In this document: piece by piece, positions 3,120 to 41,230 of the stretch | Layout of the letters: each line of letters begins with the position of its first letter | Position numbering within the stretch: position 1 is the first letter of the stretch | DNA from: Prosopocoilus inquinatus | Lineage: Eukaryota; Arthropoda; Insecta; Coleoptera; Lucanidae | Assembly: GCA_036172665.1 (NCBI GenBank) | Contig: CM069875.1 | Coordinates: 12,604,001-12,668,000 of the forward strand | DNA length: 64,000 bases | Reading direction: 5' to 3' | Notes under the pieces: generated by a model | Database searches by the model: none | Told to the model about the DNA's origin: nothing | Seen by the model: the letters and a program-made list of their open reading frames with translations, nothing else | Position numbers and translations under genes: made by a program

Positions 3120-3369
3120 GTAAGACTTTTACCAATATAATAGAAGTAGTGATGAGTATGATATGTACAGCAATAAAGAACATTATTAATTAATTAATAG
3201 ATTAATAAAGTAATCCTAGATGTAAATGTAAATAAAATTATTCAGCATTCAAGTAGTTTTAAACCAACGATGTAAGTGCTAGTTTACTTCTGTAAATGTT
3301 GCGACATTAACAATTTCATTTGTAGATATTTACAGATTTTCCATTAAAATCTATTGTAAGATTTCAATG

Positions 3370-3713
3370 TGTGGCGAGCCGCTCAGTGCTGCGTCACGCT
3401 GAGGGCGTCAGGAGGTCGGTTCGCTGTTGTGCGTCATCGGCCATCACGCCACCGGGGCCTACACCGGGGTCATATCGAACAGACTGGAATCTTCCCGCAT
3501 AGAGAGTTCCAGACGGCGGCGAATAATATAAAATCGCCCCGGGTTGACTCACGAGTCAGTCGAATTCGAACAGCGATCGTCGAAGTTAGATTTTAGTGTG
3601 AAAATAAATTGTTAGAAATAAATTAGTTTTTAAGCTTTATTAAATTACGGTTAAGTTTTTATCGAGTGTTTTATTCGTTTAAATAAATAAACTCAAACCC
3701 TAGAAACGTAACA
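3370..3713 (+). repeat. E1 5' LTR
   Basis: Starts TGTGGCGAGCC and ends CGTAACA. It includes a core promoter (TATAAAA at 3527, TCAGT at 3556) and AATAAA-type signals in its 3' part. It looks identical to 9559-9902. A 75-codon open frame inside it is a by-product of its GC-rich half, not a gene. Confidence 0.95.
3527..3560 (+). promoter_or_regulatory. E1 LTR core promoter (TATA plus TCAGT initiator)
   Basis: TATAAAA at 3527-3533 is followed by the arthropod initiator TCAGT at 3556-3560; the T of TATA to the A of the initiator (3558) is 31 bp, the canonical distance. The same pair recurs in the 3' LTR. This predicts the transcript start, and so the R region, at about 3558. Confidence 0.7.
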
Positions 3714-3810: not shown

Positions 3811-6800
3811 ATGGCTACGAGAAAAGTGTTGTTGAAAGACTTAAAAGTGGCCGAATTAAAAACCGAATTGGAAGAACGAGAGTTAGAAACCTGTGGTTTG
3901 AAAGGCGCACTTCAACAGCGTCTCCGATCCGATTTGTTGACAGCTGGTGAAGATCCAGAGACGTTCCTTTTCGAAATTTCGTGTGGTCCCGTCGATTTTA
4001 ACAAAATCTTGAAGGATGAACTTCGAGAACAATCCAGAAATTTGGACGAGAAGTTTCTAGAACAATCTGGAAATTTCAAGGACGAACTTCGAGAACAATC
4101 CAGAAATTTGGACGAGAAGTTTCAAGAACAGTCTGGAAATTTAGAGAAGAAACTTCTAGAACAATCTGGAAATTTCAAGGACGAACTTCGAGAACAATCT
4201 GTAAACTTCAAAGACGAGTTGCGAACTAAATTAATGGAACAATCCAGAAATTTAGAGGAGAAGCTTCTAGAACAAGCTGGAAATTTCGACAAATCACAGA
4301 ATAAATTGTTGGAACAATCTAGAGACTTAGACGAGAAATTTCGAGAGCAATCCAGAAATTTCGACGAGAAATTTCTAGAACAAACAAAAGGACTTGAAGA
4401 TCAACTAGTGGTAAAAATATCGGAAGAAACAAGGAACTTGCAAGAAAATGTGGAAGAAATAATATTCCAGCAGGATAATAAAATCAAAAATCTGGAACAA
4501 ATCATGGCGGGGTTGCGAGTGTTCGGGGATCAGCCACCAGTAGAAACACTAGAAAATAATGAAACCCGAATTGTGGAAGGACCAACAGAAAATTCGAAAT
4601 TGAAAGTAAAACCACCGACGTTCGATGGAAAGTCTTCTTGGCCCAACTACTTCAAACAGTTCGAAGCAGCAGCAAAGGCGAACAGATGGACGGCCAGCGA
4701 AAAAGCCACTTCGTTAATTGTGGCCTTGAGAGGGGACGCTATCGATGTGCTACAGACGATGCCGCCAGAGGAACAAGAAGACTTCGACAAGCTGGTGAAC
4801 AGGATGGAAATGCGTTACGGACAGGCCCATCTGACCGAGGTATACCATGCGCAGTTGAGGAATCGCTGCGAATTCGAAGCGGACGTAGCGCGGCTGGCCC
4901 AGTTGGCATATCCCACAGCTCCTGTTGAATTCCTCAAATGTTTGACGGTGCAGACCTTCATAGATGGAATCCGTGACCCAGACAACCAGCAGGCATTGAG
5001 AATGACCCATCCGAAGACGTCCAAGAACGCATTGGCTTATGCCTTGGAATTTGAAGCGGCGAGACGAGTTTCAAGAGGGCATGTCAAGGTGCGAGCGGCT
5101 ACGGACTTCCAAGAGGAAGAAGAGGAAGAATCCGCTAACTCCAAGGTGGGATCTGCTATAAAGGAGCGACCCAGGGAATATACCACCGCCGAGGATGTTC
5201 GCCGCATTGTGGAACAGGTCTTCAAGCAGAAGAAGCCTCTGGTGTGGCCAGGAGGAAGGACATGTTCGCAGGCGATGTCCAAAACCCAGACAGGATCCAA
5301 GGAAGCCACAGTTAAACTAAGCCGGGTCGGTGCAGAGGGGCAAACGTCGACCCGTATTCAAAGGCCCCCAAAGACGAAAGCCAACCAAGTAATATCTCTA
5401 CGGCAGTTAACCAGCAGTATCTTCGTGGATGTTACCATTGATGACATTCCTCACACCATGTTATTGGATACGGGTGCGACGAAGACCATCCTAAGACCCG
5501 ACGTCATTAAGTCATCTGGACGCACCGAGCCGACCAAGTGGAAACTGAAAACTGCAACTGGAACATCAGCAACTGTCCACGGTGAAGTAGAGGTTATCAT
5601 CACCATTGGTTCAACTCCAATAAAACACCGTGCACTGGTGGCAGATATAGAGGACGAGGCAATTTTGGGCATGGACGTCATGTGTGCCCGCGGGTTCCAA
5701 TTGGACTTAAAGCGTGGCGTGATGGCGGTCAATAATGAGGAGTTGGTTCTACATCAACGAGGAGACGTGGCCGCTCGAGTAGTCCTCGCTGAAGACGTTG
5801 TATTACCCAGCAGGACTGAGGTTAACGTCGACGCAAAACTGGACGGTGTTTTTCAAGATGGGCAAGTCATTATGGTTGAACCTAATACTGATGATCAAAG
5901 GATTGGAAGAGGAGTCCTCGTTGGGAAAATGTTGTTGACGGCGAAGAAGGAAGTACCTGTCCGCCTGATGAACGTCAATTGTTTCTCCGTTAATATCAAG
6001 AAAGGAACCATCTTGGGAAGCTGCACCATGGTGTCCTCCATCTCCCGCCACCTTGAAGCAAACGTGCCAGAAGCGAAAGTCCCAAGGAAATTATGGGAAA
6101 TGGTTATGTCAACAGCCCAGGAATTGACTCCAGACCAGAAGACAAAAGCGAAGAACCTGATCGGCCGCTATCAAGATGTATTTGAGATAGAAAATGGATC
6201 CAAGGGAAGAACTGATGTGAAACACAAAATAGAGACTGGAGAAGAAAGACCTATCCGTCAAGCTCCAAGGCGATTACCGTTGGCGAAGCGTGAGGAAGCG
6301 GAACGCATTATTCGCGAGATGGAAAAGGATAATGTAATAGAACCATCAAGCAGCCCGTGGGCGTCACCAGTAGTGCTTGTGAAGAAGAAGGATGGGTCCA
6401 CCAGGTTCTGTGTAGACTACCGGTTACTCAATAATGTCACCAAGAAGGACAGCTATCCCCTGCCACGGATTGATGATACCCTGGACACCCTGGCCGGCTC
6501 AAAGATCTTCTCAACTTTGGACTTAAAGAGTGGATATTGGCAAGTGGAGCTGGCGCCCGAAGATCGAGAAAAGACGGCGTTTTCCATTGGTATGGGTCTG
6601 TGGCAGTTCACAGTGATGCCATTCGGATTATGTAATGCCCCAGCGACATTCGAGAGGTTAATGGAGACGGTTCTGAAAGGTCTGTCCTGGACAACGTGCA
6701 TGGTGTACCTTGATGACATAATTGTCGTGGGAAAGACGTTCGACGACCACCTAAGGAACCTGGAAGGAGTGTTCCAGCGGCTTCGCGGAGCTGGACTAAA

Positions 6801-9591
6801 GCTTAGCCTCAAGAAGTGTCACCTGTTCCAGAAGGAAGTGAATTACCTGGGGCACATTGTTAATGGAAACGGAATCGCCGTGGACCCTGTGAAGATTCAG
6901 GTGGTGAAAGACTGGCCAACTCCCAGAAATAAACACCAAATAAGGAATTTCCTTGACCTGTGCACTTACTATCGGCGCTACGTTCCTGGATTTGCAGACA
7001 TTGCTAAGCCGTTGACAAAACTCACTGAAGAAGGTCGTCCATTTGAATGGGACCAACAGTGTCAAATTGGCTTTGAACAACTAAAGCAGTACTTGATTAG
7101 TGCTCCTATTTTGAGTTATCCTCTCCCGGAAGGCAAATTCGTCGTGGACACAGATGCTAGCAACGTTGGGATTGGTGGCGTACTCTCCCAGATACAAGAG
7201 GGGCAAGAGAAGGTGATCGGCTACTTCAGTAAAGTCCTATCAAAGCCGGAACGAAACTATTGCGTCACAAGAAGGGAATTGCTAGCCGTCGTAAAAACGA
7301 TAGAACACTTCTACAAGTACTTGTATGGTAGACGCTTCCTGCTGAGGACCGACCACGCCGCTCTAAAATGGCTTCTCCGTTTCAAGAACCCAGAAGGGCA
7401 AGTTGCACGATGGATCGAACGACTTCAGGAGAACGATTTTGAAATTCAGCATCGGGCAGGAACTAGCCATCGAAATGCCGATGCTCTGTCGAGAAGACCC
7501 TGTGCCGAAGACTGTAAGCACTGTAGTCGTTTGGACGAGAAAGTAGCCACGACTGCGAGGACAGCCATTGTTGATGACAAATGGCAAGCCGAAGAACTGC
7601 GAAGAGACCAGGAGAACGACCCGGATTTGAAATTAGTGCTAGAGTGGAAAAGCAGGGACGCGAGGCCTACCTGGGAAGAGGTAGCACCATGTGCACCGTC
7701 CGTAAAATCATACTGGGCGCAGTGGGACTCCATAGTGTTGGATCGTGGTCTTCTGAGACGAAGCATAGAGAATCAGGAAGGCATGGAACAGAAGACACAG
7801 TTACTGATCCCCAAGAATAGGGTGCCAGAAGTTCTGAGGGAACTTCACGATGGAACTTCGGGAGGGCATCTGGGAGTTAAGAAGACTATGGAGAAGGTGC
7901 GCGAAAGATTTTACTGGGTGAACTGCAAGGAAGACGTGAAGGATTGGTGCAGAAAGTGTGCAGTCTGCGCAGCCAGTAACGGTCCCCACAGGCGGGGTAA
8001 GGCTCCCATGAGACAGTACAACGTTGGAAGTCCTTTTGAGAGAGTTGCCATCGATGTAGCCGGCCCGTTTCCAGAAACGAATGGTGGAAACAAGTACATC
8101 GTCGTGGTAATGGACTACTTTAGTAAGTGGGTTGAAGCTTACGCCCTACCTAACCAAGAGGCAGTCACTATTGCGGAAGTCCTTGTCAGGGAATGGATCA
8201 GTCGGTATGGTGCACCTATGGAACTGCATTCAGACCAAGGAAGGAACTTTGAATCGGCCTTGTTCAAGAACGTGTGTACTCTGCTCGGCGTACGAAAAAC
8301 TAGAACAACTGCACTCCACCCACAGTCGGACGGAATGGTGGAAAGGTTCAATAGAACCATCAACCGACATTTGTCCAACGTCGTTTCCAATCATCAGAGG
8401 GACTGGGACACGTACATCCCCCTGTTTCTAATGGCATACCGCTCATCTGTTCATGAGACAACAGGGGAGACTCCCGCGAAAGTGGTATTCGGGCGAGAGC
8501 CGAGACTGCCCTGCGACCTGAAGTTTGGTGTGAAGCCTGGCGAAGTCTCTGCCGACGAAGATCACGTGAGCAAATTACGCAGGAAAATGGATGATATCCA
8601 CAACCAAGTGCGTCACAATATACAGACGGCCAGCGATCGGATGAAGGAGCACTATGACATCAACGCTCAACACGGGGGATACCAACCTGGAGCACTGGTC
8701 TGGCTTTATAACCCCCAAAGACGTCGAGGCCTCTCCCCAAAATTACAGACCTCTTGGGAAGGTCCTTACAAAGTGATGAAACGGATCAACGACATCGTTT
8801 ACCGCATCAAGAAGGTCCCCCATGGCAAACCCAAAGTAATCCACTTCAACCGGATAGCCCCTTACCATGGAGAAGCAGATGAAGGGACAGTACAAAGGGC
8901 GCAAGTTTCCGAAGTGAACTTCGAAACCTTCATGTCTCATCACGCCAAAGGAAGCAAGGCACGGTTTGGAGTGACCACGGAGAAGCAACAAGATCTCTTT
9001 AAAGTGCCACTGGAGTACAGTCTGGCCCACTGCGTAGCAGAAGACCTGAAAATGTCCAAAGGAATCGCTCAGGTGTTTAGGAAGAAATTTGGCCAAATCG
9101 AGGAGCTACGAAGACAGGATCCCGTGGTAGGCAAGAGCTTGCAGATCATTGATTCGACGGCAGATCGGAGGCGCCACGTGCATTATTTAGTCACTAAGAA
9201 GACATCAAGCGGTAAACCTGACTATGTGACTATGTGGAGAGCCCTATATAGCCTGAGGAGACAGCTAATAGAGAACCATCAGATGAAGTTGGCCATCCCC
9301 AAATTGGGCTGCGGATTGGACGGACTAGACTGGAGAGTAATACGAAGCATGCTGGAAGTCATCTTCCACAGAACGGGAATTGAAGTCCTAGTCTGCAGCC
9401 ATCACCCACAGGCAACAGTCAGCAACAGCAAAACCGTAGACTGCTACTTCTTCCAGACGGGAAATTGCAAGAATGGGCCAGCTTGTAGATTCCGACATCC
9501 TCCTTCAAGACTATCACCAGGAACATTTCGAGACGAAACGTTTTTAAGAAGGGGGCAGTGTGGCGAGCCGCTCAGTGCTGCGTCACGCTGA
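3811..9591 (+). CDS. E1 Gag-Pol polyprotein with C-terminal macro domain and CCCH finger
   Basis: A 1926-residue retrotransposon polyprotein in one frame. In order: SAP-like motif (about residues 5-45); 11-residue coiled-coil repeats (about 73-200); Gag capsid-like region (about 268-430); aspartic protease with DTGA at 553; reverse transcriptase with YLDD at 966-969; RNase H (D1113/D1115 region); integrase zinc finger (H1346, H1353, C1383, C1386) and D1415, D1475, E1511 with D35E spacing; then a GPY/F-type module. Residues about 1724-1866 form a macro domain like TARG1/OARD1, an enzyme family that removes ADP-ribose from protein; Lys1796/1797 in YLVTKK and Asp1837 in GCGLD match the catalytic pair. 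A C-x7-C-x5-C-x3-H finger follows (C1878-H1896). The Gag zinc knuckle is cut by an 8-bp deletion relative to E2, which also fuses gag and pol into one frame. A 9-codon deletion lies near 4868. The macro assignment rests on motif recognition. Confidence 0.92.
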   Translation: MATRKVLLKDLKVAELKTELEERELETCGLKGALQQRLRSDLLTAGEDPETFLFEISCGPVDFNKILKDELREQSRNLDEKFLEQSGNFKDELREQSRNLDEKFQEQSGNLEKKLLEQSGNFKDELREQSVNFKDELRTKLMEQSRNLEEKLLEQAGNFDKSQNKLLEQSRDLDEKFREQSRNFDEKFLEQTKGLEDQLVVKISEETRNLQENVEEIIFQQDNKIKNLEQIMAGLRVFGDQPPVETLENNETRIVEGPTENSKLKVKPPTFDGKSSWPNYFKQFEAAAKANRWTASEKATSLIVALRGDAIDVLQTMPPEEQEDFDKLVNRMEMRYGQAHLTEVYHAQLRNRCEFEADVARLAQLAYPTAPVEFLKCLTVQTFIDGIRDPDNQQALRMTHPKTSKNALAYALEFEAARRVSRGHVKVRAATDFQEEEEEESANSKVGSAIKERPREYTTAEDVRRIVEQVFKQKKPLVWPGGRTCSQAMSKTQTGSKEATVKLSRVGAEGQTSTRIQRPPKTKANQVISLRQLTSSIFVDVTIDDIPHTMLLDTGATKTILRPDVIKSSGRTEPTKWKLKTATGTSATVHGEVEVIITIGSTPIKHRALVADIEDEAILGMDVMCARGFQLDLKRGVMAVNNEELVLHQRGDVAARVVLAEDVVLPSRTEVNVDAKLDGVFQDGQVIMVEPNTDDQRIGRGVLVGKMLLTAKKEVPVRLMNVNCFSVNIKKGTILGSCTMVSSISRHLEANVPEAKVPRKLWEMVMSTAQELTPDQKTKAKNLIGRYQDVFEIENGSKGRTDVKHKIETGEERPIRQAPRRLPLAKREEAERIIREMEKDNVIEPSSSPWASPVVLVKKKDGSTRFCVDYRLLNNVTKKDSYPLPRIDDTLDTLAGSKIFSTLDLKSGYWQVELAPEDREKTAFSIGMGLWQFTVMPFGLCNAPATFERLMETVLKGLSWTTCMVYLDDIIVVGKTFDDHLRNLEGVFQRLRGAGLKLSLKKCHLFQKEVNYLGHIVNGNGIAVDPVKIQVVKDWPTPRNKHQIRNFLDLCTYYRRYVPGFADIAKPLTKLTEEGRPFEWDQQCQIGFEQLKQYLISAPILSYPLPEGKFVVDTDASNVGIGGVLSQIQEGQEKVIGYFSKVLSKPERNYCVTRRELLAVVKTIEHFYKYLYGRRFLLRTDHAALKWLLRFKNPEGQVARWIERLQENDFEIQHRAGTSHRNADALSRRPCAEDCKHCSRLDEKVATTARTAIVDDKWQAEELRRDQENDPDLKLVLEWKSRDARPTWEEVAPCAPSVKSYWAQWDSIVLDRGLLRRSIENQEGMEQKTQLLIPKNRVPEVLRELHDGTSGGHLGVKKTMEKVRERFYWVNCKEDVKDWCRKCAVCAASNGPHRRGKAPMRQYNVGSPFERVAIDVAGPFPETNGGNKYIVVVMDYFSKWVEAYALPNQEAVTIAEVLVREWISRYGAPMELHSDQGRNFESALFKNVCTLLGVRKTRTTALHPQSDGMVERFNRTINRHLSNVVSNHQRDWDTYIPLFLMAYRSSVHETTGETPAKVVFGREPRLPCDLKFGVKPGEVSADEDHVSKLRRKMDDIHNQVRHNIQTASDRMKEHYDINAQHGGYQPGALVWLYNPQRRRGLSPKLQTSWEGPYKVMKRINDIVYRIKKVPHGKPKVIHFNRIAPYHGEADEGTVQRAQVSEVNFETFMSHHAKGSKARFGVTTEKQQDLFKVPLEYSLAHCVAEDLKMSKGIAQVFRKKFGQIEELRRQDPVVGKSLQIIDSTADRRRHVHYLVTKKTSSGKPDYVTMWRALYSLRRQLIENHQMKLAIPKLGCGLDGLDWRVIRSMLEVIFHRTGIEVLVCSHHPQATVSNSKTVDCYFFQTGNCKNGPACRFRHPPSRLSPGTFRDETFLRRGQCGEPLSAASR
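4027..4400 (+). repeat. 33-bp tandem repeats coding an 11-residue coiled coil
   Basis: About eleven imperfect 33-bp units, each coding a variant of EQSRNLDEKFL or EQSGNFKDELR, with occasional 3-4 residue insertions. An 11-residue (hendecad) period with regularly spaced hydrophobics suggests a right-handed coiled coil in Gag, probably for multimerisation. E2 has about twelve units at 31496-31880 in a different order, so the array expands and contracts. Confidence 0.8.
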
Positions 9592-9902
9592 GGGCGTCAG
9601 GAGGTCGGTTCGCTGTTGTGCGTCATCGGCCATCACGCCACCGGGGCCTACACCGGGGTCATATCGAACAGACTGGAATCTTCCCGCATAGAGAGTTCCA
9701 GACGGCGGCGAATAATATAAAATCGCCCCGGGTTGACTCACGAGTCAGTCGAATTCGAACAGCGATCGTCGAAGTTAGATTTTAGTGTGAAAATAAATTG
9801 TTAGAAATAAATTAGTTTTTAAGCTTTATTAAATTACGGTTAAGTTTTTATCGAGTGTTTTATTCGTTTAAATAAATAAACTCAAACCCTAGAAACGTAA
9901 CA
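9559..9902 (+). repeat. E1 3' LTR
   Basis: It appears identical to 3370-3713. The gag-pol frame runs 33 bases into it before its stop at 9589-9591. Followed by the target duplication AATG. Confidence 0.95.
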
Positions 9903-10118
9903 AATGTATTCAAAATATATTAAAAGATAACTATTTATTCAAATAGTCAAATGTATTGATGATTTCTCAGAAGCACTGAACTGATAATACTGAAGCTGTA
10001 TGATTGCTATGTTTACACCTGAGATCCTAGTTGTCCAGGATTACTAAGTAACTGAACCTTTACAAAAACACTGTAACATATTAAAAATATGAAACTAACT
10101 AAAGTGTGTATCTTTCAG

Positions 10119-11231: not shown

Positions 11232-12943
11232 ATGGCAAATTCGAATAAGTCAATGGACGCCTACCTAATTTCAAATTTGCCTCCTAAGTTAGAACAAACA
11301 TGGTGCTCGTATGGCCACACTCTTATTTTAAGACACTCTAAGCTGTACGATCCGTCAGGAGTTGCGGTGTCAGAAGCGGAAATTTCAAGAATGAAGCTGT
11401 GCGAGTTAAAAGTAAAAGAGCTGCGTGAGGAATTAGAAGAAAGAGGTCAGGAAAATTCGGGAAAGAAAAGCGTCTTACAAGAACGACTGAAACAAGCTCC
11501 TTGTAGATGAAGGTAAAGACCCGGAAACATTTGAATTTGAAATTGAAGACGCAGCAGCTCTACTGAAAGTGAAAGAAAAAATGGAAAAAGGTAACGAAAA
11601 TATGAAATTAGAAATGTAGAAGTGAAAGAAAAAATGGAAAAAGTAACGAAAATATGAAATTAGAAATGCCGGAAGTGAAAGAAAATATAAAAGAGCAAAC
11701 GCAAGAAGTGAGAAAACAAATGGAAAGTTTGGATATGAAAATGGAAACTTACAGTTTAAAAACCGATCAGAATATAGAAAACATGAAGATGCAAATCGAT
11801 GAAACGATTGAAGATCTTAAAACCGAATGTGACGAGAAAATTGAAGGCGTACGAAATCAGTTTGATAGTACAATAAAGGAAATGAAATTGGAATTCGACG
11901 ATAAACTTGATGAGAAATTTGGTAGAATAAAAATTCAGTTCCAAGATAAATTTGAAGCCTTAGCGAAACAACTGCATAAAGTGGAACTGGGTCGTTCGAT
12001 TGCACCATCGTCTGCGTCGTCAAACCAGAAACTAAAACCACCCAAATTCGAAGGCGACTTACCTTGGTGTACTTTCATCAGTTCAAAATTGCTGCTGACG
12101 TGAATGGCGGGAATGACTGTGACAGAGCTGCATATTTGGCTCTGCGAGATACAGCATTGAGTGCATTACAGTCCATTCCCAAAGAAGTAGAGAACAACTT
12201 TGATCAACTGGTGGAGAACTTAGAAATGCGTTTTGGTGATGCACACATGAAGCAAGTCCATACCATCCAATTGAAAACTCGTACCCAGAAGAATGGTGAG
12301 TTACTTCAAGAGTTTGCACTCGACATTGAGAGACTGGTAAGCATGGCATATGGAAATTTCTTACCTGAACCAGTTTTTCATCGTTTGGCCATCCAAGCAT
12401 TCATCGACGGCATTAGAGATCAGGAAATGCAACAAGTATTACGATTGGGTAACTTCTGCAAATGCATAGATGTACTGGCCCGTGCACTGGAATTCGAGGC
12501 AAGCATCTCGAAGCCTAGTACGAGTACGAGACATGAAAGCTACCGACGACAATGCACTAACGGAACTCTCTGAAAGAATCGAGCGACTAGAAGAAAATAA
12601 ATCTACAAGTTATACGAGACGGATTATGACTTGTTCGAACTTTGGTAAACAAGGTCATGTAAGTTCCAACTGTAGGCGCAAACGGGCGCGTCAAGACGAA
12701 GACTTTGAATTAAAACCAGTCAGAAAGAAGTGCCGAATGGTGACTGACACTGCGAAGAGCCCCAGGATTGTCTCCATTTCCAGGATAAGGAACAATGAGA
12801 ATAGCTTGATAACAGATGGAAAAATTGACGAGAGATCTTTCCAATTCACAATTGATACCATCATAAGAACAGATCTTTTACCAAAATGGAAAGGTATATC
12901 ACATCCAAACAGCTACTGGCGAGGTTACTCCAATTTGTGGTGA
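11232..12943 (+). pseudogene. E3 gag relic
   Basis: Begins at ATG 11232. A SAP-type motif follows (after KLCELKVKELREELEERG, near 11391-11450), then a frame break near 11510, a charged coiled-coil segment (11654-11960), a Gag capsid-like segment (12064-12573) and a zinc knuckle whose first ligands read C-S-N-F instead of C-x2-C (near 12640). At least three frameshifts separate these pieces, so no Gag can be made. An 18-bp word at 11345-11362 is identical to the R-region start of the 3' LTR (18387-18404), hinting at a rearranged 5' end. Confidence 0.75.
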
Positions 12944-15900
12944 AGCCAAAATTGACATGAAGATTGGAAGTATGAAATTCAGACACAGGGTGTTAGTGGC
13001 AGACATTGTTGACGACTTCATACTAGGAGTGGACTTCATAAGGAAAAACAGTTTGGTTGTAGATTTAAAAGATAAAGTTCTACGAATTAGATCTGAAGAA
13101 ATACCTCTCCACGTTCCTGGAAATCTATCTACAGTGCTAAAAGTAATATTGGAATAAAGTGTAAACATTCCAGCCTTAACCGATAAGTTAATTCTGGGAA
13201 TTAGGCAATCTTGGCAGCTATCCTGCCGGAATCATAGAGCCAACTGAGATCAGCAGCGCCAAGAAAGGAATTTTATTGGCTGGGACTCTGGTGAAGATCC
13301 AAGAAACAATTCCTATTCGTCTTGCAAATGTCAACAGTTACCCGGTGACCATACCCAGCGGAACAGTGGTGGGCCAATGTGAAGCAATTGTTTCTGTGAA
13401 CCACATTCAAGTAAACGATGCATCCGCTCGGCATCAGTCTGACACTCTACCACCACTACTAGAGAAATTGCTGGAAGCTGTATCAACATCGTTAACACTC
13501 ATGGAAACAAAAGACATAGAAGGACTGTTTCGAAAATACAAAAGAATCTTCGCCTTTACCGATGAAGACTTAACCCGGACGGACGTTGTTCAGCACAGAA
13601 TAAACACTGGCGATCGAATCCAATTCGTCAACCCGCACGAAGACTGCCGTTGACGAGGAGAGAAGAGACTGACAAGTTAATCAAGAAGATGTAAGGCCAA
13701 GGATATACTGAACCGTCGCAAAATCCACGGGCATTTCCTGTTGTATTTACTTGTAACTAAAAATGATGGCAACACGCGTTTCTGTGTGGACTACAGGCGA
13801 TTAAATATCACGAAAAAATATAGCTATCGCTTACCCCAGATTGAGGACACAATTGACACCTTATCCGGTGCGAGATGGTTCTCTACTCTGGACTTGAAAA
13901 GTGACTATTGACAAGTTGGAATGCATCCCGAAGACAAGGAAAAGACAGCCTTCACTGCAGGTACTGGTCTGTGGCAGTTCAAGGTGATGCCTTTTGGTCT
14001 ATGTAACGCCCCAGCCACTTTTGAACGACTCATGGAATTGGTATTGCATGGACTTAGCTGGAATACTTGCCTCGTATACTTAGATGTTGTGATTATGGTT
14101 GGAAGAACCTTCAAAGAACACCTTGCAACTCCGAGGAACGTTTTCCAAAGGATTGAAGAGGCGAAGCTAAAATTAAATCCGGCCAAATGCAAGTTTTTCA
14201 AGAAAGAAGTGAATTACCTTGGACATGTCATCTCTGAGGCAGGAGTTGCGACCGACCCAAACAAGATTTCAGCTGTTAAGAACTGGCCACCACCGAAGAA
14301 TGTGCATGAATTAAGAAGTTTCTTGGGGCTCTGCACCTATTACAGACGATTCGTTAAGGACTTTGCAAAGGCAGCGAAACCTCTGCATGCACTGACCGAA
14401 GGAAAAACCACATTTTTCTGGAGTAGGGACTGCCAATAATCCTTTGATAATCTGAAGGATCTTTTGGTGACTGTTCCTATATTGTCTTATCCAAGATCAG
14501 AGGGCAAGTTTATTATTGATAGTTGTTACGTTCGTCTTGTCGTTTTTCTCCGTTTCGGTCAGGCTGTGTTTTCTTCTTCTGTTCGAGATCCGATTTTACA
14601 CTTCTTCCCCCTTGTTTTGGTTACGCTGGATGTCTTTCACAGGGCGTATTTCTGCAAATGTTACTCGTGTACTCGCTTTCTATCTAATTGTTGTCATTTC
14701 GCTGCGTGGCATTCACGGGTTGTTTTCCATCTTTGCGCATTTCCTCGAGCGTATTTCTTCGTTTCCATCAACCGCCTTCGGGTCCGTGCCCTTTTGCGTA
14801 CCGTGAAATGTTTGTTTGTTTACTCTTTTAGTAGAGGTTATGTGTTGCCCGGCTGACTTGACTAAGTGTTGCCATCTGTAGCTTCTTCTTTGGGGTGTTT
14901 GGCGACACGTTTGTTTTTACGGTGTGCCACTGACGGGTTCTCGTTCCCTTTTTCTTATTTCTCTCCTCATCCTTTTTTTTCCCTGTTGGGCTCAGTTTGT
15001 TTTCTCTTCGTTCCACCAACTTTCGGTATTCTTCATTAAGTTGTTTCTCCCTCCTCTTGTTGCTAATTTCATGTGCGACGCGCGTTTAGCTTGTCTCCGT
15101 TTTCCGCGTTCCGTTCAGTCGTTAACTGATTGCGACGAAGTGAAGGTTGTCGTCGGGGCTGAGGTTTGGCTTTGCCGAAATTTTGGGAATTTAAGATTCT
15201 ATTTTGGCTTGAAGAATCGGCTACCCGTGTTGGGATTTTGCCTCCTCAGTTTTGGTGGTTGAAAAGTTAACCTTCGCTTGGATGCGGATAGATTTTCCCG
15301 ACCTCGTGTGATCTCCTTCACCGCCATTTTATCGACGTTCGCCACGTACTCTCCGTTTGAGGATTTTGGAAGCTTTAAGTCACTTCGAGAGGCGTGGTAA
15401 GTTCCCTCCACCCCTCTCTTTTTTTGACGGTGGTCAACCCACGGTGCAATCTAAGGCCAGCATCGTCGTTGCTCGACTCGAAATTCACCGGCCCTCAGAA
15501 TCCCCGTCTTTTAGACGTGGTACATCGGGACCGAGGCGTGCTAAATTCCGCCAGTCGAGGAGTCATCCTTCTCCTTCGAGCCTGCTGAGCTGCTACGGAA
15601 GCGATTGGACCGCCTACCAGTTTGGGGAACACGATAAGTCTGTATTTTTACTTCTACTTCGAATTCGGACTTCTTTAAGTGCGTGTTCCATTGCACTGTA
15701 CGTCGCGCCCCCTTCCCCCCATTTTGGTTATCGCTTTTGGCTCCGTCAATTTACCTATCTTTATATATATATACATATATATAATTTAATTTTCTCTGTT
15801 AATTTTCCTTTGCGGACTACGAGTCTATTTTATTGTTTTTTTTGTTTGTCATATTTCTGAAATTCAGCCCTTCCGGCCTACTTTTATTTTTCTTGCCCCG

Positions 15901-18245: not shown

Positions 18246-18256
18246 GAGAGGCGCAG

Positions 18257-18591
18257 TGTTACAGCCGTCACGCGCAAACACATCTATTTTTAGCATCAGT
18301 ACGCCACCTTGCCTCACAGAACATGACTGGAGACTACTCGATCATTCCAGTATGTTGGAGCAATAGAGGGCTCTGCTATATAAGCCGTACGATCCGTCAG
18401 GAGTGATAATTATTAAGATAGCCAGCGAAGGGTTCGTTCGTACCTAGAATAAATAGAAAGTACATTTTGTAAAAGTATTATTTGATAGACAAGTTCTTTA
18501 CTATTATGATGTTAATTGTGTAAAGCGACAGCTTGTAATTAGTGTTCTGAAATTTAATGACTACAATTTGTGAACCCGCAAATTCGTAACA
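18257..18591 (+). repeat. E3 3' LTR
   Basis: Follows a purine run ending GAGGCGCAG. Starts TGTTACAG and ends CGTAACA. It contains TATATAAG at 18377-18384, a TCAG at 18397 and AATAAA near 18449. No second copy is visible in the window, so the boundaries rest on the TG...CA ends and the polypurine tract. Confidence 0.7.
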
Positions 18592-20893: not shown

Positions 20894-21064
20894 TGTAATG
20901 TAGTAGAAAGAACCCTAGAGGGCGTATGCGTACACAGTCAGTTTTAGATGCGACGCCATGCGGGAGTCTATTCATAGCACTAGGTTAGCGAAGATGTACA
21001 TGGTGTTGTTTGCCCGAAAGAAATAAATAAAAACATGTATAAAACATTATTACACTTTATTACA
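20894..21064 (+). repeat. E5 5' LTR
   Basis: Starts TGTAATG, ends TTATTACA. It carries a TCAGTT initiator-like word near 20938-20943 and an AATAAATAAA poly(A) signal near 21021-21030. It has no clear TATA box. Confidence 0.9.
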
Positions 21065-21186
21065 TTGGCGACGAGGTAAAAGCAACAAAAAGAAGAAAGT
21101 TCATTAAGTAAGCAGGGCGTTTATTTAAGGAAAATTTTAAGTGCACAAGGTGTGTATCGAATTAGTGTATCCATTTTTGAAGTAAC

Positions 21187-25282: not shown

Positions 25283-25298
25283 TCTAGGGAGGAAGGGA

Positions 25299-25469
25299 TG
25301 TAATGTAGTAGAAAGAACCCTAGAGGGCGTTTGCGTACACAGTCAGTTTTAGATGCGACGCCATGCGGGAGTCTATTCATAGCACTAGGTTAGCGAAGAT
25401 GTACATGGTGTTGTTTGCCCGAAAGAAATAAATAAAAACATGTATAAAACATTATTACACTTTATTACA
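25299..25469 (+). repeat. E5 3' LTR
   Basis: 171 bp, one visible difference from the 5' LTR. Followed by the target duplication ATATT at 25470-25474. Confidence 0.95.
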
Positions 25470-31279: not shown

Positions 31280-32839
31280 ATGGCTACGAGAAAAGTGTTG
31301 TTGAAAGACTTAAAAGTGGCCGAATTAAAAACCGAATTGGAAGAACGAGAGTTAGAAACCGGTGGTTTGAAAGGCGCACTTCAACAGCGTCTCCGATGCG
31401 ATTTGTTGATAGCTGGTGAAGATCCAGAGACGTTCCTTTTCGAAATTTCGTGTGGTCCCGCCGATTTTAATAAAATCTTGAAGGATGAATTTCGAGAACA
31501 ATCCAGAAATTTGGACGAGAAGTTTCAAGAACAATCTGGAAATTTCAAGGACGAACTTCGAGAACAATCCAGAAATTTGGACGAGAAGTTTCTAGAACAA
31601 TCTGGAAAATTCAAGGACGAATTTCGAGAACAATCCAGAAATTTGGACGAGAAGTTTCAAGAACAGTCTGGAAATTTAGAGAAGCTTCGAGAACAATCCA
31701 GAAATTTAGAGGAGAAGCTTCTAGAACAATCTGGAAATTTCGACAAATTACAAAATAAATTGTTGGAACAATCTAGAGACTTAGACGAGAAATTTCTAGA
31801 GCAATCCAGAAATTTCGACGAGAAACTTCTAGAACAGTCCGGAAATTTGAAGGGTGAATTTCTAGAACAGACGAAAGGACTCGAAGATAAACTAGTGGTA
31901 AAAATATCGGAAGAAACAAGAAACCTGCAAGAAAATGTGGAAGAAATAATATTCCAGCAGGATAACAAAATCAAAAATCTGGAACAAATCATGGCGGGGT
32001 TGCGAGTGTTCGGGGATCAGCCACCAGTAGAAATACTAGAAAATAATGAAACCCGAATTGTGGGAGGACAAGCAGAAAATTCGAAATTGAAAATAAAACC
32101 ACCAACGTTCGATGGAAAGTCTTCTTGGCCCAACTACTTCAAACAGTTCGAAGCAGCAGCAAAGGCGAACAGATGGACGGCCAGCGAAAAAGCCACTTCG
32201 TTAATTGTGGCCTTGAGAGGGGACGCTATCGATGTGCTACAGACGATGCCGCAAGAGGAACAAGAAGACTTCGACAAGCTTGTGAATAGGATGGAAATGC
32301 GTTACGGACAGGCCCATCTGACCGAGGTATACCATGCGCAGTTGAGGAATCGCTGTCAGAAATCCGGAGAAAGTCTTCAGGAATTCGAAGCGGACGTAGC
32401 GCGGCTGGCCCAGTTGGCATATCCCACAGCTCCTGTTGAATTCCTCAAATGTTTGACGGTGCAGACCTTCATAGATGGAATCCGTGACCCAGACAACCAG
32501 CAGGCATTGAGAATGATCCATCCGAAGACGTCCAAGAACGTATTGGCTTATGCCTTGGAATTTGAAGCGGCGAGACGAGTTTCAAGAGGGCATGTCAAGG
32601 TGCGAGCGGCTATGGACTTCCAAGAGGAGGAAGAAGAAGGGTCCGCCAACGCCAAGGTGGGATCTGCTAATAAGGGGCAATCCAAGGAATATGCCACCGC
32701 CGAGGATGTTCGCCGCATTGTGGAACAGGTCCTCAAGCAGAAGAAGCCGCTGGTGTGTTGGAATTGCCAGGAGGAAGGACATGTTCGTAGGCGATGTCCA
32801 AAACCCAGACAGGATTCAAGGAAGCCACAGTTAAACTAA
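31280..32839 (+). CDS. E2 Gag
   Basis: 519 residues from ATG 31280, the same start as E1. SAP-like N-terminus (about 5-45), about twelve 11-residue coiled-coil units (about 73-200), Gag capsid-like region, then an intact CCHC zinc knuckle (CWNCQEEGHVRRRC) near the C-terminus. It keeps the nine residues around QKSGESLQE that E1 has lost. The stop at 32837-32839 lies directly after G TTA AAC, a candidate -1 frameshift site leading into pol. SAP motifs bind DNA or chromatin in cellular proteins; a role in Gag nuclear targeting is conjecture. Confidence 0.93.
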   Translation: MATRKVLLKDLKVAELKTELEERELETGGLKGALQQRLRCDLLIAGEDPETFLFEISCGPADFNKILKDEFREQSRNLDEKFQEQSGNFKDELREQSRNLDEKFLEQSGKFKDEFREQSRNLDEKFQEQSGNLEKLREQSRNLEEKLLEQSGNFDKLQNKLLEQSRDLDEKFLEQSRNFDEKLLEQSGNLKGEFLEQTKGLEDKLVVKISEETRNLQENVEEIIFQQDNKIKNLEQIMAGLRVFGDQPPVEILENNETRIVGGQAENSKLKIKPPTFDGKSSWPNYFKQFEAAAKANRWTASEKATSLIVALRGDAIDVLQTMPQEEQEDFDKLVNRMEMRYGQAHLTEVYHAQLRNRCQKSGESLQEFEADVARLAQLAYPTAPVEFLKCLTVQTFIDGIRDPDNQQALRMIHPKTSKNVLAYALEFEAARRVSRGHVKVRAAMDFQEEEEEGSANAKVGSANKGQSKEYATAEDVRRIVEQVLKQKKPLVCWNCQEEGHVRRRCPKPRQDSRKPQLN

Positions 32840-35800
32840 TCCGGGTCGGTGCAGAGGGGCAAACGTCGACCCGTATTCAAAGGCCCCCAAAGACGAAAGC
32901 CAACCAAGTAATATCCCTACGGCAGTTAACCAGCAGTATCTTCGTGGATGTTACCATTGATGACATTCCTCACACCATGTTATTGGATACGGGTGCGACG
33001 AAGACCATCCTAAGACCCGACGTCATTAAGTCATCTGGACGCACCGAGCCGACCAAGTGGAAACTGAAAACTGCAACTGGAACATCAGCAACTGTCCACG
33101 GTGAAGTAGAGGTTATCATCACCATTGGTTCAACTCCAATAAAACACCGTGCACTGGTGGCAGATATAGAGGACGAGGCAATTTTGGGCATGGACGTCAT
33201 GTGTGCCCACGGGTTCCAATTGGACTTAAAGCGTGGCGTGATGGCGGTCAATAATGAGGAATTGGTTCTACATCAACGAGGAGACGTGGCCGCTCGAGTA
33301 GTCCTCGCTGAAGACGTTGTATTACCCAGCAGGACTGAGGTTAACGTCGACGCAAAACTGGACGGTGTTTTTCAAGATGGGCAAGTCATTATGGTTGAAC
33401 CTAATACTGATGATCAAAGGATTGGAAGAGGAGTCCTCGTTGGGAAAATGTTGTTGACGGCGAAGAAGGAAGTACCTGTCCGCCTGATGAACGTCAATTG
33501 TTTCTCCGTTAATATCAAGAAAGGAACCATCTTGGGAAGCTGCACCATGGTGTCCTCCATCTCCCGCCACCTTGAAGCAAACGTGCCAGAAGCGAAAGTC
33601 CCAAGGAAATTATGGGAAATGGTTATGTCAACAGCCCAGGAATTGACTCCAGACCAGAAGACAAAAGCGAAGAACCTGATCGGCCGCTATCAAGATGTAT
33701 TTGAGATAGAAAATGGATCCAAGGGAAGAACTGATGTGAAACACAAAATAGAGACTGGAGAAGAAAGACCTATCCGTCAAGCTCCAAGGCGATTACCGTT
33801 GGCGAAGCGTGAGGAAGCGGAACGCATTATTCGCGAGATGGAAAAGGATAATGTAATAGAACCATCAAGCAGCCCGTGGGCGTCACCAGTAGTGCTTGTG
33901 AAGAAGAAGGATGGGTCCACCAGGTTCTGTGTAGACTACCGGTTACTCAATAATGTCACCAAGAAGGACAGCTATCCCCTGCCACGGATTGATGATACCC
34001 TGGACACCCTGGCCGGCTCAAAGATCTTCTCAACTTTGGACTTAAAGAGTGGATATTGGCAAGTGGAGCTGGCGCCCGAAGATCGAGAAAAGACGGCGTT
34101 TTCCATTGGTATGGGTCTGTGGCAGTTCACAGTGATGCCATTCGGATTATGTAATGCCCCAGCGACATTCGAGAGGTTAATGGAGACGGTTCTGAAAGGT
34201 CTGTCCTGGACAACGTGCATGGTGTACCTTGATGACATAATTGTCGTGGGAAAGACGTTCGACGACCACCTAAGGAACCTGGAAGGAGTGTTCCAGCGGC
34301 TTCGCGGAGCTGGACTAAAGCTTAGCCTCAAGAAGTGTCACCTGTTCCAGAAGGAAGTGAATTACCTGGGGCACATTGTTAATGGAAACGGAATCGCCGT
34401 GGACCCTGTGAAGATTCAGGTGGTGAAAGACTGGCCAACTCCCAGAAATAAACACCAAATAAGGAATTTCCTTGACCTGTGCACTTACTATCGGCGCTAC
34501 GTTCCTGGATTTGCAGACATTGCTAAGCCGTTGACAAAACTCACTGAAGAAGGTCGTCCATTTGAATGGGACCAACAGTGTCAAATTGGCTTTGAACAAC
34601 TAAAGCAGTACTTGATTAGTGCTCCTATTTTGAGTTATCCTCTCCCGGAAGGCAAATTCGTCGTGGACACAGATGCTAGCAACGTTGGGATTGGTGGCGT
34701 ACTCTCCCAGATACAAGAGGGGCAAGAGAAGGTGATCGGCTACTTCAGTAAAGTCCTATCAAAGCCGGAACGAAACTATTGCGTCACAAGAAGGGAATTG
34801 CTAGCCGTCGTAAAAACGATAGAACACTTCTACAAGTACTTGTATGGTAGACGCTTCCTGCTGAGGACCGACCACGCCGCTCTAAAATGGCTTCTCCGTT
34901 TCAAGAACCCAGAAGGGCAAGTTGCACGATGGATCGAACGACTTCAGGAGTACGATTTTGAAATTCAGCATCGGGCAGGAACTAGCCATCGAAATGCCGA
35001 TGCTCTGTCGAGAAGACCCTGTGCCGAAGACTGTAAGCACTGTAGTCGTTTGGACGAGAAAGTAGCCACGACTGCGAGGACAGCCATTGTTGATGACAAA
35101 TGGCAAGGCGAAGAACTGCGAAGAGACCAGGAGAACGACCCGGATTTGAAACTAGTGCTAGAATGGAAAAGCAGGGACGCGAGGCCTACCTGGGAAGAGG
35201 TAGCACCATGTGCACCGTCCGTAAAATCATACTGGGCGCAGTGGGACTCCATAGTGTTGGATCGTGGTCTTCTGAAACGAAGCATAGAGAATCAGGAAGG
35301 CATGGAACAGAAGACACAGTTACTGATCCCCAAGAATAGGGTGCCAGAAGTTCTGAGGGAACTTCACGATGGAACTTCCGGAGGGCATCTGGGAGTTAAG
35401 ACTATGGAGAAGGTGCGCGAAAGATTTTACTGGGTGAACTGCAAGGAAGACGTGAAGGATTGGTGCAGAAAGTGTACAGTCTGCGCAGCCAGTAACGGTC
35501 CCCACAGGCGGGGTAAGGCTCCCATGAGACAGTACAACGTTGGAAGTCCTTTTGAGAGAGTTGCCATCGATGTAGCCGGCCCGTTTCCAGAAACGAATGG
35601 TGGAAACAAGTACATCGTCGTGGTAATGGACTACTTTAGCAAGTGGGTTGAAGCTTACGCCCTACCTAACCAAGAGGCAGTCACTATTGCGGAAGTCCTT
35701 GTCAGGGAATGGATCAGTCGGTATGGTGCACCTATGGAACTGCATTCAGACCAAGGAAGGAACTTTGAATCGGCCTTGTTCAAGAACGTGTGTACTCTGC

Positions 35801-37092
35801 TCGGCGTACGAAAAACTAGAACAACTGCACTCCACCCACAGTCGGACGGAATGGTGGAAAGGTTCAATAGAACCATCAACCGACATTTGTCCAAGGTCGT
35901 TTCCAATCATCAGAGGGACTGGGACACGTACATCCCCCTGTTTCTAATGGCATACCGCTCATCTGTTCATGAGACAACAGGGGAGACTCCCGCGAAAGTG
36001 GTATTCGGGCGGGAGCCGAGACTGCCCTGCGACCTGAAGTTTGGTGTGAAGCCTGGCGAAGTCTCTGCCGACGAAGATTACGTGAGCAAATTACGCAGGA
36101 AAATGGATGATATCCACAACCAAGTGCGTCACAATATACAGACGGCCAGCGATCGGATGAAGGAGCACTATGACATCAACGCTCAACACGGGGGATACCA
36201 ACCTGGAGCACTGGTCTGGCTTTATAACCCCCAAAGACGTCGAGGCCTCTCCCCAAAATTACAGACCTCTTGGGAAGGTCCTTACAAAGTGATGAAACGG
36301 ATCAACGACGTCGTTTACCGCATCAGGAAGGTCCCCCATGGCAAACCCAAAGTAATCCACTTCAACCGGATAGCCCCTTACCATGGAGAAGCAGATGAAG
36401 GGACAGTACAAAGGGCGCAAGTTTCCGAAGTGAACTTCGAAACCTTTATGTCTCATCACGCCGAAGGAAGCAAGGCACGGTTTGGAGTGACCACGGAGAA
36501 GCAACAAGATCTCTTTAAAGTGCTACTGGAGTACAGTCTGGCCCACTGCGTAGCAGAAGACCTGAAAATGTCCAAAGGAATCGCTCAGGTGTTTAGGAAG
36601 AAATTTGGCCAAATCGAGGAGCTACGAAGACAGCATCCCGTGGTAGGCAAGAGCTTGCAGATCATTGATTCGACGGTAGATCGGAGGCGCCACGTGCATT
36701 ATTTAGTCACTAAGAAGACATCAAGCGGTAAACCTGACTATGTGACTATGTGGAGAGCCCTATATAGCCTGAGGAGACAGCTAATAGAGAACCATCAGAT
36801 GAAGTTAGCCATCCCCAAATTGGGCTGCGGATTGGACGGACTAGACTGGAGAGTAATTCGAAGCATGCTGGAAGTCATCTTCCACAGAACGGGAATTGAA
36901 GTCCTAGTCTGCAGCCACCACCCACAGGCAACAGTCAGCAACAGCAAAACCGTAGACTGTTACTTCTTCCAGGCGGGAAGTTGCAAGAATGGGCCAGCAT
37001 GTAGATTCCGACACCCTCCTTCAAGACTATCACCAGGAACATTTCGAGACGAAACGTTTCTAAGGAGGGGGCAGTGTGGCGAGCCAACCTGA
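32794..37092 (+). CDS. E2 Pol with C-terminal macro domain and CCCH finger
   Basis: Open frame of 1432 codons from an in-frame ATG, overlapping gag by 46 nt in the -1 phase; the true product probably starts by frameshifting at 32830-32836. Order: aspartic protease (DTGA, D65), RT (YLDD at 478-481), RNase H, integrase with HHCC finger and D,D35E, GPY/F-type module. Then comes a TARG1-like macro domain (nt about 36489-36927) with YLVTKK and GCGLD, and a CCCH finger (C1389 to H1407). All catalytic motifs are present. One codon is missing in the integrase zinc region compared with E1 (VKTMEK versus VKKTMEK). The frame ends in the first bases of the 3' LTR. Confidence 0.93.
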   Translation: MSKTQTGFKEATVKLIRVGAEGQTSTRIQRPPKTKANQVISLRQLTSSIFVDVTIDDIPHTMLLDTGATKTILRPDVIKSSGRTEPTKWKLKTATGTSATVHGEVEVIITIGSTPIKHRALVADIEDEAILGMDVMCAHGFQLDLKRGVMAVNNEELVLHQRGDVAARVVLAEDVVLPSRTEVNVDAKLDGVFQDGQVIMVEPNTDDQRIGRGVLVGKMLLTAKKEVPVRLMNVNCFSVNIKKGTILGSCTMVSSISRHLEANVPEAKVPRKLWEMVMSTAQELTPDQKTKAKNLIGRYQDVFEIENGSKGRTDVKHKIETGEERPIRQAPRRLPLAKREEAERIIREMEKDNVIEPSSSPWASPVVLVKKKDGSTRFCVDYRLLNNVTKKDSYPLPRIDDTLDTLAGSKIFSTLDLKSGYWQVELAPEDREKTAFSIGMGLWQFTVMPFGLCNAPATFERLMETVLKGLSWTTCMVYLDDIIVVGKTFDDHLRNLEGVFQRLRGAGLKLSLKKCHLFQKEVNYLGHIVNGNGIAVDPVKIQVVKDWPTPRNKHQIRNFLDLCTYYRRYVPGFADIAKPLTKLTEEGRPFEWDQQCQIGFEQLKQYLISAPILSYPLPEGKFVVDTDASNVGIGGVLSQIQEGQEKVIGYFSKVLSKPERNYCVTRRELLAVVKTIEHFYKYLYGRRFLLRTDHAALKWLLRFKNPEGQVARWIERLQEYDFEIQHRAGTSHRNADALSRRPCAEDCKHCSRLDEKVATTARTAIVDDKWQGEELRRDQENDPDLKLVLEWKSRDARPTWEEVAPCAPSVKSYWAQWDSIVLDRGLLKRSIENQEGMEQKTQLLIPKNRVPEVLRELHDGTSGGHLGVKTMEKVRERFYWVNCKEDVKDWCRKCTVCAASNGPHRRGKAPMRQYNVGSPFERVAIDVAGPFPETNGGNKYIVVVMDYFSKWVEAYALPNQEAVTIAEVLVREWISRYGAPMELHSDQGRNFESALFKNVCTLLGVRKTRTTALHPQSDGMVERFNRTINRHLSKVVSNHQRDWDTYIPLFLMAYRSSVHETTGETPAKVVFGREPRLPCDLKFGVKPGEVSADEDYVSKLRRKMDDIHNQVRHNIQTASDRMKEHYDINAQHGGYQPGALVWLYNPQRRRGLSPKLQTSWEGPYKVMKRINDVVYRIRKVPHGKPKVIHFNRIAPYHGEADEGTVQRAQVSEVNFETFMSHHAEGSKARFGVTTEKQQDLFKVLLEYSLAHCVAEDLKMSKGIAQVFRKKFGQIEELRRQHPVVGKSLQIIDSTVDRRRHVHYLVTKKTSSGKPDYVTMWRALYSLRRQLIENHQMKLAIPKLGCGLDGLDWRVIRSMLEVIFHRTGIEVLVCSHHPQATVSNSKTVDCYFFQAGSCKNGPACRFRHPPSRLSPGTFRDETFLRRGQCGEPT
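32830..32836 (+). promoter_or_regulatory. Candidate -1 frameshift site GTTAAAC
   Basis: G TTA AAC is in phase with the gag codons (CAG TTA AAC TAA) and is followed at once by the gag stop. A -1 slip enters the pol frame. GTTAAAC is a known variant slippery heptamer in arteriviruses. I did not find an obvious downstream stem. Confidence 0.45.
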
Positions 37093-40384: not shown

Positions 40385-40513
40385 GTCGAGTCTTCATTTT
40401 GTCGGTCGCCAAGTTGATATTACGTCGCACGTACTCGTGAGTGCGAGTTAAACGGCGTTCCAGATCTTGCGAGTACTCACTTAATTGCAGTCGAGTCTCT
40501 GGTAGCCCAAATT

Positions 40514-41230
40514 TTAGTCACAAGGCAAACGCATTTCCCTTCCAAACAAAACACTGTACGGTGTTCGTTTAGTTGTGTCGTGCTCTGCAAAACGGTAAGC
40601 CATCAAGAAAAGAGGAAGATGTTCATCCCAATCTCGTTGGTTTTTCGAAACAACTTTGCCCAGATGTCTTTCCAGAGTCCTATTGAACCGTTCCACCATT
40701 CCATCTGATTGCGGATGCAAAGGAGTTGTTCGCGTTTTGAAAATGCCCAGTAACCGAGTCAATTCTTGGAAAATATGTCCCTCAAAGTTCCTACCTTGAT
40801 CGGAATGGATCTCCATGGGTACTCCAAACCTTGTTATCCAGTTCTCTATCAAGGCATTCGCAACCGTTGCGGACTCTTGATTTGGCAAAGCATAACCTTC
40901 TGGTCATTTGGTAAAATAATCCGTCACTATCATGATGTATTTGTTCTCACGGTTGGTTTCTGGAAATGGCCCGGCGATATCAACGGCAATCCGTTCAAAT
41001 GGGGCACCAACGTTGTAAGACTCTAACTAAGATCTTCCGCGAGTCTTTGGCAGGTCCGGATACTGCAGCGCAAGTCGTACATCTGGCACACCAGTTTTTT
41101 ACATCAGTTCTACATTTCGCCCAGTAGAACCTTTCTCGCCCTTTCGATAATGTCTTATTGATGCCCAAATGTCCACCGGTTGGCCCACCATGAATTTCTT
41201 CTAGGACCTCAGCGATTCTTACCCTAGGTT
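40514..41230 (-). pseudogene. E4 integrase relic
   Basis: The minus strand carries an integrase segment with the EIHSDQGRNFEG and HPQSDGMVERFNRT core (40888 down to 40514) and, upstream of it (41020-41230), an HHCC zinc-finger region (IHGGPTGGHLGI). Stops and frame changes separate these pieces. Confidence 0.8.

Follow-up and report, generated by a model that had tools for sequence, protein, structure and literature searches.

A gypsy element with a TARG1 macrodomain behind its integrase

We analysed 64,000 nucleotides of the lucanid beetle Prosopocoilus inquinatus (contig CM069875.1, positions 12,604,001 to 12,668,000; hereafter the window), near the start of which lies a Ty3/gypsy long terminal repeat (LTR) retrotransposon, E1. 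Beyond its integrase, the Gag-Pol polyprotein of E1 continues into a macrodomain of the TARG1/OARD1 (ADP-ribosyl hydrolase) type and a CCCH zinc finger. Its features, including the open reading frame (ORF) and reverse transcriptase (RT), are as follows.

3366..3369, + strand: target-site duplication AATG, left copy (read from the flank)
3370..3713, + strand: 5' LTR of E1 (TGTGGC...GTAACA), identical to 9559-9902
3811..9591, + strand: E1 Gag-Pol ORF, 1926 aa, single frame
3832..3933, + strand: SAP domain at the start of Gag (Pfam SAP, E 2.4e-06)
5425..5682, + strand: aspartic protease (Pfam gag-asp_proteas, E 2.8e-10)
6301..6861, + strand: RT (Pfam RVT_1, E 1e-29); start approximate, the match in the searched piece beginning at 6502, model position 68
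7126..7431, + strand: RNase H (Pfam RT_RNaseH, E 5e-33)
7807..8862, + strand: integrase, with H2C2 zinc domain, core and p58-type C-terminal domain (Pfam PF17921, PF00665, PF22938)
8971..9393, + strand: TARG1/OARD1-like macrodomain, start at about 8971; K84 equivalent at 9196-9198, D125 equivalent at 9319-9321
9442..9498, + strand: CCCH zinc finger, C-x7-C-x5-C-x3-H (Pfam zf-CCCH, E 4.4e-06, above cut-off)
9546..9558, + strand: polypurine tract AAGAAGGGGGCAG, within the ORF, encoding the C-terminal RRGQ residues
9559..9902, + strand: 3' LTR of E1, with 33 bases of the ORF inside it
9903..9906, + strand: target-site duplication AATG, right copy (read from the flank)

The Gag-Pol ORF is one continuous frame without a stop, as an earlier account made from the letters of the window (the sequence-only reading) had stated for the run from integrase into the tail, and its Pfam matches follow the protease-RT-RNase H-integrase order of Ty3/gypsy Pol. 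The two LTRs are 344 bases each, identical and flanked on either side by AATG, and TGG stands one or two bases 3' of the 5' LTR, at the primer-binding-site position. From its identical LTRs, AATG flanks and open ORF, E1 looks like a young, complete insertion. The end of the feature had earlier been set at 9501; this has to be moved, since the ORF crosses the polypurine tract and ends 33 bases into the 3' LTR, which makes all of 9546-9591 coding. A C-terminal LRRGQC motif common to many of the related proteins, whose tract-encoded part is visible in most rows of our protein alignment of E1 (family A) and related proteins, is the tract and LTR end read in frame, and its conservation may thus serve DNA rather than protein.

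The motifs SLAHCVAEDL, GIAQVFRKKFG and YLVTKK, from which a TARG1 match had been read, are present in E1, and the match itself, fused in frame to a gypsy integrase, was borne out by database searches and by conserved relatives. In a PDB sequence search human TARG1 was matched over 141 residues from about 8971 (2eee_A, E 7.5e-29; 4j5r_A, E 1.2e-28), and Foldseek with a structure model of the E1 domain gave 4j5s_C (E 4.6e-16), sequence and model both pointing to the TARG1 fold. Indeed, K1796 (9196-9198) and D1837 (9319-9321), the residues proposed as catalytic, align with K84 and D125 of human TARG1, both pairs being spaced by 41 residues, and fold and Lys/Asp pair are present in the model, with pocket geometry judged by alignment only. 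E1 also carries the TARG1 pattern TKx(30,35)Px[IL]GxGxD, which we took together with the TARG1 ligand residues from PMC6397177. A search with hidden Markov models of macro families had been proposed as a check. Pfam Macro (PF01661) gave the macro piece 18.1 bits against a curated cut-off of 22, so that this model alone would miss the E1 macrodomain; the significant match came from the PDB search.

Compared with human TARG1 (OARD1, C6orf130; PDB 4j5q, 4j5r, 4j5s, 2eee), the E1 domain is part of a retrotransposon polyprotein, is a few residues longer ahead of the strand leading to K84, and has Cys for Y150 and Ala for S35, the latter as in fly TARG1s and in the second domain of a candidate host gene described below. 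The macrodomain of bacterial DarG (DarTG; PDB 5m3i, 5m3e) is 21-23% identical to that of E1 and has stand-alone relatives on viral contigs, 80 loci of which (L009-L088) encode TARG1/DarG-like domains. Alignment and structure model, then, identify the tail domain of E1 as a TARG1 macrodomain in which the catalytic Lys and Asp are both kept, and it has the residues required for TARG1's lysyl-ADP-ribose reaction (PMC6397177).

The macrodomain across gypsy families, copies and species

E1 is one case among several. Searches of the 650-Mb assembly (173 contigs) with fly TARG1, and later with a family-F domain, found seven further macro-bearing gypsy families, B to I (L numbers denote loci).

Family B (L129, L130, L140, L142, L147, L148, L149, L152, L164): protease, macro, RT; in L130, in one frame, protease 45-132, macro 321-427, RT 730-892 (Pfam)
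Family C (L138, L139, L146): protease-like end, macro, RT
Family D (L137, L150, L172; D2 is L143, L170): protease, macro, RT; in L150, protease 67-168, macro ~231-373, RT from 619
Family G (L165, L169, L171): protease, macro, RT; in L169, protease 88-172, macro 273-370, RT from 636; in L165, protease 57-142, macro ~215-351, RT from 604
Family H (L166, L168): macro between RNase H and integrase; in L166, RNase H to 645, macro ~690-826, integrase zinc domain from 908
Family I (L167): RNase H to 490, macro ~546-679, integrase zinc domain from 854
Family F (L141, L144, L151): integrase, then macro; in L141, integrase C-terminal domain 447-481, macro 545-644

A single genome thus holds the macrodomain in eight gypsy families and at three Pol junctions: between protease and RT (B, C, D, G), between RNase H and integrase (H, I) and after integrase (A, F). 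That families of the same genome carry TARG1 elsewhere in Pol is a stronger finding than the E1 fusion alone. The protease of family C rests on frame reading, protease queries having given no matches, and the fetched copies of this family are broken (frames of 210-411 codons). Among seven stretches of the other families, Pfam Macro exceeded its cut-off in three (L130, 36 bits; L141, 33.7; L169, 23.8) and gave no match at E 0.001 in four (L150, L165, L166, L167), where the assignment rests on tblastn and phmmer. Among the other families, five were compared with the PDB, and TARG1 came first in each, with E values of 3e-39 for B, 1.2e-42 for F, 2.5e-37 for G, 3.2e-35 for H and 7.6e-29 for I. Copies number at least 9 in F, at least 6 in H (with a 1784-codon frame), at least 17 in G (with a 1764-codon frame), at least 11 by score in B, and in D at least 14 that span the full query and one more that spans 127 of its 143 residues.

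An RT tree of 25 rows joined D with G (100/99) and B, C, H and I with one another (99/93), left F separate, and placed family A with two macro-less relatives from the window (81/89), unresolved within. The macrodomain is therefore found on a number of different gypsy backbones, and some relatives have no detectable macrodomain, although those two are broken. They lie at 12064-18272 (+) and 40499-44058 (-), are near family A in RT and integrase (~63% in integrase), and gave no macro match when 44 macro sequences were run against the window, where, apart from the E1 and E2 tails, nothing scored better than E 0.018.

We compared residues in a 44-row alignment of 23 element domains, hand-chosen from the eight families, and 21 stand-alone or host domains; near-duplicates and degraded copies (e.g. 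L137, L140, L144, L147-L149, L151, L152, L164, L168, L173) were excluded from the 23. K84, T83 and P118 are kept in 23/23 element domains and D125 in 22/23, one D2 copy having Asn. G123 is likewise kept in 22/23, and at G121 there are 14 Gly, eight Ala and one Cys.

Family A has a second member in the window, E2:

32794..37092, + strand: E2 pol ORF with macro-CCCH tail as in E1
36487..36909, + strand: TARG1-like macrodomain (by alignment with E1)
36958..37014, + strand: CCCH finger (by alignment with E1)

The earlier statement that E2 carries the same extension with few substitutions and no stops holds for its tail, which is 97% identical to that of E1 over 217 residues and stop-free until the ORF's own end inside the LTR; the layout needs correcting, gag and pol of E2 (31280-37092) lying in two overlapping frames of 519 and 1432 codons where E1 has a single frame. 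Open frames of many genome copies measure ~1430-1525 or ~1830-1990 codons, which would fit both layouts being common.

Of 1430 first-look candidates for the family-A tail, 150 were scored; these are 98-100% identical, and 149 are stop-free in the tail. Forty of them, with E1 and E2, formed a 42-row sample for selection. Its pooled ratio of nonsynonymous to synonymous polymorphism (pN/pS), from pairs that are not independent, was 0.25 in the macrodomain, 0.20 in linker and finger and 0.36 in the C-terminus. Over the 203-codon stretch 24/42 rows have one stop, that of E2 being its ORF end inside the LTR, and one fetched copy has a stop before residue 174. The corresponding substitution ratio (dN/dS; NG86, Jukes-Cantor), rough where dS exceeded 1.5 as it did in some of the ten within-family pairs, was 0.10-0.35 overall in the macrodomain: family B gave 0.14 and 0.35, C 0.18-0.26, G 0.10-0.18, and D against D2 0.15. 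Between E1 and E2, the comparison proposed in the sequence-only reading, it was 0.28, from three synonymous and three other macro changes. By these ratios the macrodomain is under purifying selection. The macrodomain evolves faster than RT of the same copies, amino-acid identity in family G being 0.56-0.65 in the former versus 0.87-0.88 in the latter, a pattern that one might expect if it is an accessory or conflict gene. Many genome matches on contigs C5, C6 and C15 are paired at similar offsets (C5 40.27/48.66 Mb; C6 37.13/42.81 and 37.56/43.22 Mb), suggesting segmental duplications or retained haplotypes, so that copy counts may be inflated.

A search for integrase-macro fusions in other insects had been proposed, and the fusion was found in assemblies of other beetles. 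We queried other species with the macrodomain and with the family-A tail and Pol part. The macrodomain alone returned 15 proteins, including ones from Aromia, Pyrocoelia, Gonioctena and Leptinotarsa and stand-alone fly TARG1s; the Pol-part region (best 120 of 154 matches) returned mostly Aromia moschata and Molorchus minor, and also Callosobruchus maculatus, and a further search (best 120 of 6080) added Exocentrus. Clustered at 80% identity, 137 proteins including the E1 and E2 tails formed 23 clusters, six of stand-alone TARG1 and 17 of element type, the largest of the latter with 95 members. Among the matches listed, database names of family-A relatives are mostly 'hypothetical protein', 'uncharacterized' or 'C3H1-type'. 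With Pfam Macro under its cut-off in E1 and silent in four of the seven other stretches, annotation tends to miss the domain. One entry, P0100, an element protein of the family-A type, bears the name of the powdery mildew fungus Erysiphe pulchra and likely reflects contamination.

The finger that had been read at C1878, C1886, C1892 and H1896 (9442-9498) was recognised by Pfam zf-CCCH (PF00642) with 26.9 bits against a cut-off of 20.5. Its closest PDB match is ZF4 of the zinc-finger protein CPSF30/CPSF4, of which E1 has the equivalent of one finger only. Residues 127 and 131 of ZF4 lie at the Fip1 interface (PMC9512404), and as both are altered in E1 (Y127 to Phe, F131 to Asn) we dropped the idea of a CPSF30 mimic. 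The CCCH pattern occurs in 118/137 proteins and is missing in the eight stand-alone TARG1s and in 11 further proteins, a number of which are partial sequences or gene models; a family-F search with the CCCH tail as query gave no match. A role as substitute for a lost Gag zinc knuckle was also rejected, as both can coexist in one protein: a CxxCx4Hx4C knuckle is found in 11/137 proteins, all Molorchus family-A matches, 10 of which also have the CCCH. The sequence-only reading had proposed, as inference, that the finger guides RNA; our own guess is that it may help to tie the family-A module to nucleic acid.

Origin and possible role of the domain

At C5:3749555-3753230 (L153:5556-5687, L145:345-1931) we found a candidate for the cellular TARG1 gene. 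Its two macro domains stand in tandem, linked through a single open exon (L145:318-1565), each split at the same phase-2 site after Phe-Arg, with GT donors and TTTCTAG/TTTCAG acceptors as read from the sequence. No RT or integrase match was found in 18 kb around it (L153, L145, L154). An earlier single-copy OARD1 candidate at C4:18968479 (L137) was discarded, since it sits between protease and RT of another element. The TARG1 pattern of PMC6397177 found insect TARG1 in flies and mosquitoes only, a range which the candidate gene would extend. Element copies that we read are uninterrupted at the host intron site, so the source was probably a spliced mRNA, and capture by template switching during reverse transcription is likely.

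How many captures took place is less clear. In a macro tree of 21 family-A rows and 38 others, without other element families, family A formed one group (100/100). The next tree placed A+D (97/94) beside the candidate host gene (93/89) and B+C elsewhere (99/95); in a fuller tree the deep joins were weak and the host gene was no longer with A+D. Holding A, D, G and host together gave a p value of 0.0675 in the approximately unbiased test (p-AU; fuller tree). All element domains as one clade were not rejected either on the tree with A+D beside the host (p-AU 0.169) or on the fuller one (0.204), and neither a protease|RT group (0.12) nor A+F (0.179) was rejected. On these trees, one capture with later moves and several captures both stand. 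Nor does the Cys at Y150 settle the origin, since its states are mixed: Cys occurs in both host domains, 9/9 A rows, 3/3 G rows, I, D2 and one C row, Tyr in two D rows, B, F and two C rows, and Phe in H.

With a probability that we put at roughly 55%, the additional Pol domain of the element is an ADP-ribosyl hydrolase of the TARG1 type that would erase host ADP-ribose and so counter a restraint based on ADP-ribosylation. The macrodomain would be made and packaged with protease, RT and integrase and would be enzymatically active; ADP-ribose placed by host transferases on element proteins, single-stranded complementary DNA (cDNA) or integration-site factors would be removed, and the element could replicate despite the restraint. 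Since TARG1 reverses thymidine-linked ADP-ribose on DNA (PMC8501950, PMC9967889) and reverse transcription makes single-stranded DNA, element cDNA is one possible target. A review reports silencing of retrotransposable elements by PARPs and the use of macrodomains against PARPs by RNA viruses (PMC8066025). The macrodomains of coronaviruses, alphaviruses, rubella and hepatitis E virus are likewise borne by replicating parasites and thought to counter host ADP-ribosylation (PMC8066025); such counter-defence is already known from RNA viruses, and DarG-type domains occur on viral contigs. In the open-access literature we found no description of a macrodomain, TARG1 or ADP-ribosylhydrolase inside an LTR retrotransposon (reports elsewhere are possible), none of ADP-ribosylation-based restraint of retroelements in insects, and no paper on PARP silencing of copia or retrotransposons in Drosophila. 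A catalytic-looking eraser in eight LTR-retrotransposon families would point to such a restraint. More tentatively, and at somewhat below even odds, beetle gypsy elements may have captured host TARG1 repeatedly at three Pol junctions and carry the eraser in the particle, in an undescribed arms race with insects that restrain retroelements through ADP-ribosylation.

Several observations weigh against a hydrolase that counters host restraint. According to PMC8066025, PARP1 silenced retroviruses without recourse to its catalytic activity in the examples given there, which weakens PARP1 marks as the target; the genome has five PARP-domain matches at four places, with no transferase expansion seen among them. 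Within the domain, the phosphate loop is altered at its first Gly, G121: D, G and I rows have Ala or Cys there, and many family-A relatives have Ala or Ser. Y150, an adenine contact, is the residue replaced by Cys in E1. The strict TARG1 pattern is met by 101/104 stand-alone TARG1s and by 16/143 proteins labelled element-borne; when that Gly and adjoining residues are left free, the latter figure becomes 139/143, with 97 of the 139 being the single motif variant PKIASGLD. Finally, L173, a degraded copy outside the 23, contains Asn at D125 as well as three stops. For comparison there are several natural homologues, some with the canonical loop and some without it, and the candidate host gene.

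The altered loop would also suit a domain that directs integration by attaching to ADP-ribosylated chromatin, such as that at DNA breaks, hydrolysis being secondary or lost; integrase chromodomains play such a steering part in chromoviruses. In these Ty3/gypsy elements the chromodomain sits after the integrase C-terminal domain, the place of the macrodomain in families A (including E1) and F. E1 has a TARG1 domain instead, with no chromodomain among the Pfam matches of its pieces, and in the six other families the macrodomain lies between protease and RT or between RNase H and integrase. With three junctions it is probably not only an integrase tether, and a free enzyme fits better; the catalytic pair K84/D125 is moreover nearly invariant. 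We regard such a reader or tether as unlikely, at about the weight of a minority view. Rather improbable, in our judgement, is a service to the element's own chemistry and to no host conflict, in which the macrodomain clears ADP-ribose, O-acetyl-ADP-ribose or ADP-ribosylated RNA or DNA ends that hinder reverse transcription or joining. TARG1 works on DNA and proteins (PMC8501950) and the domain occupies several Pol positions, as this would allow; the two family-A relatives in the window do without a macro match, a weak objection as both are broken.

Elements do pick up host sequence, and the domain could be a functionless passenger acquired by template switching; with dN/dS of 0.10-0.35, catalytic residues kept across families and the fusion conserved in elements of several beetles, we consider this very improbable. 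An assembly or gene-model chimera, for which we found no point in favour, is close to negligible, given 150 scored tails of 98-100% identity, 149 of them stop-free, and the same fusion in other beetle assemblies.

Further observations on E1, E2 and their neighbours

The Gag coding of both elements contains a 33-base tandem repeat (EQSRNLDEKF-type residues) at 3976-4257 in E1 and 31445-31930 in E2, with different unit numbers. A full 5' LTR of E2 was looked for and not found. At L143 and L170 a family-A tail is followed directly by a family-D2 element. Two further gypsy elements in the window, of greater distance (RT ~35% identity), lie at 20894-25469 and 48314-52390, the former flanked by LTR-like 171-base repeats that are 99% identical (20894-21064 and 25299-25469). 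Upstream of E1, an inverted repeat at 2458-2860 has 189-base arms, 95% complementary, around a 25-base spacer.

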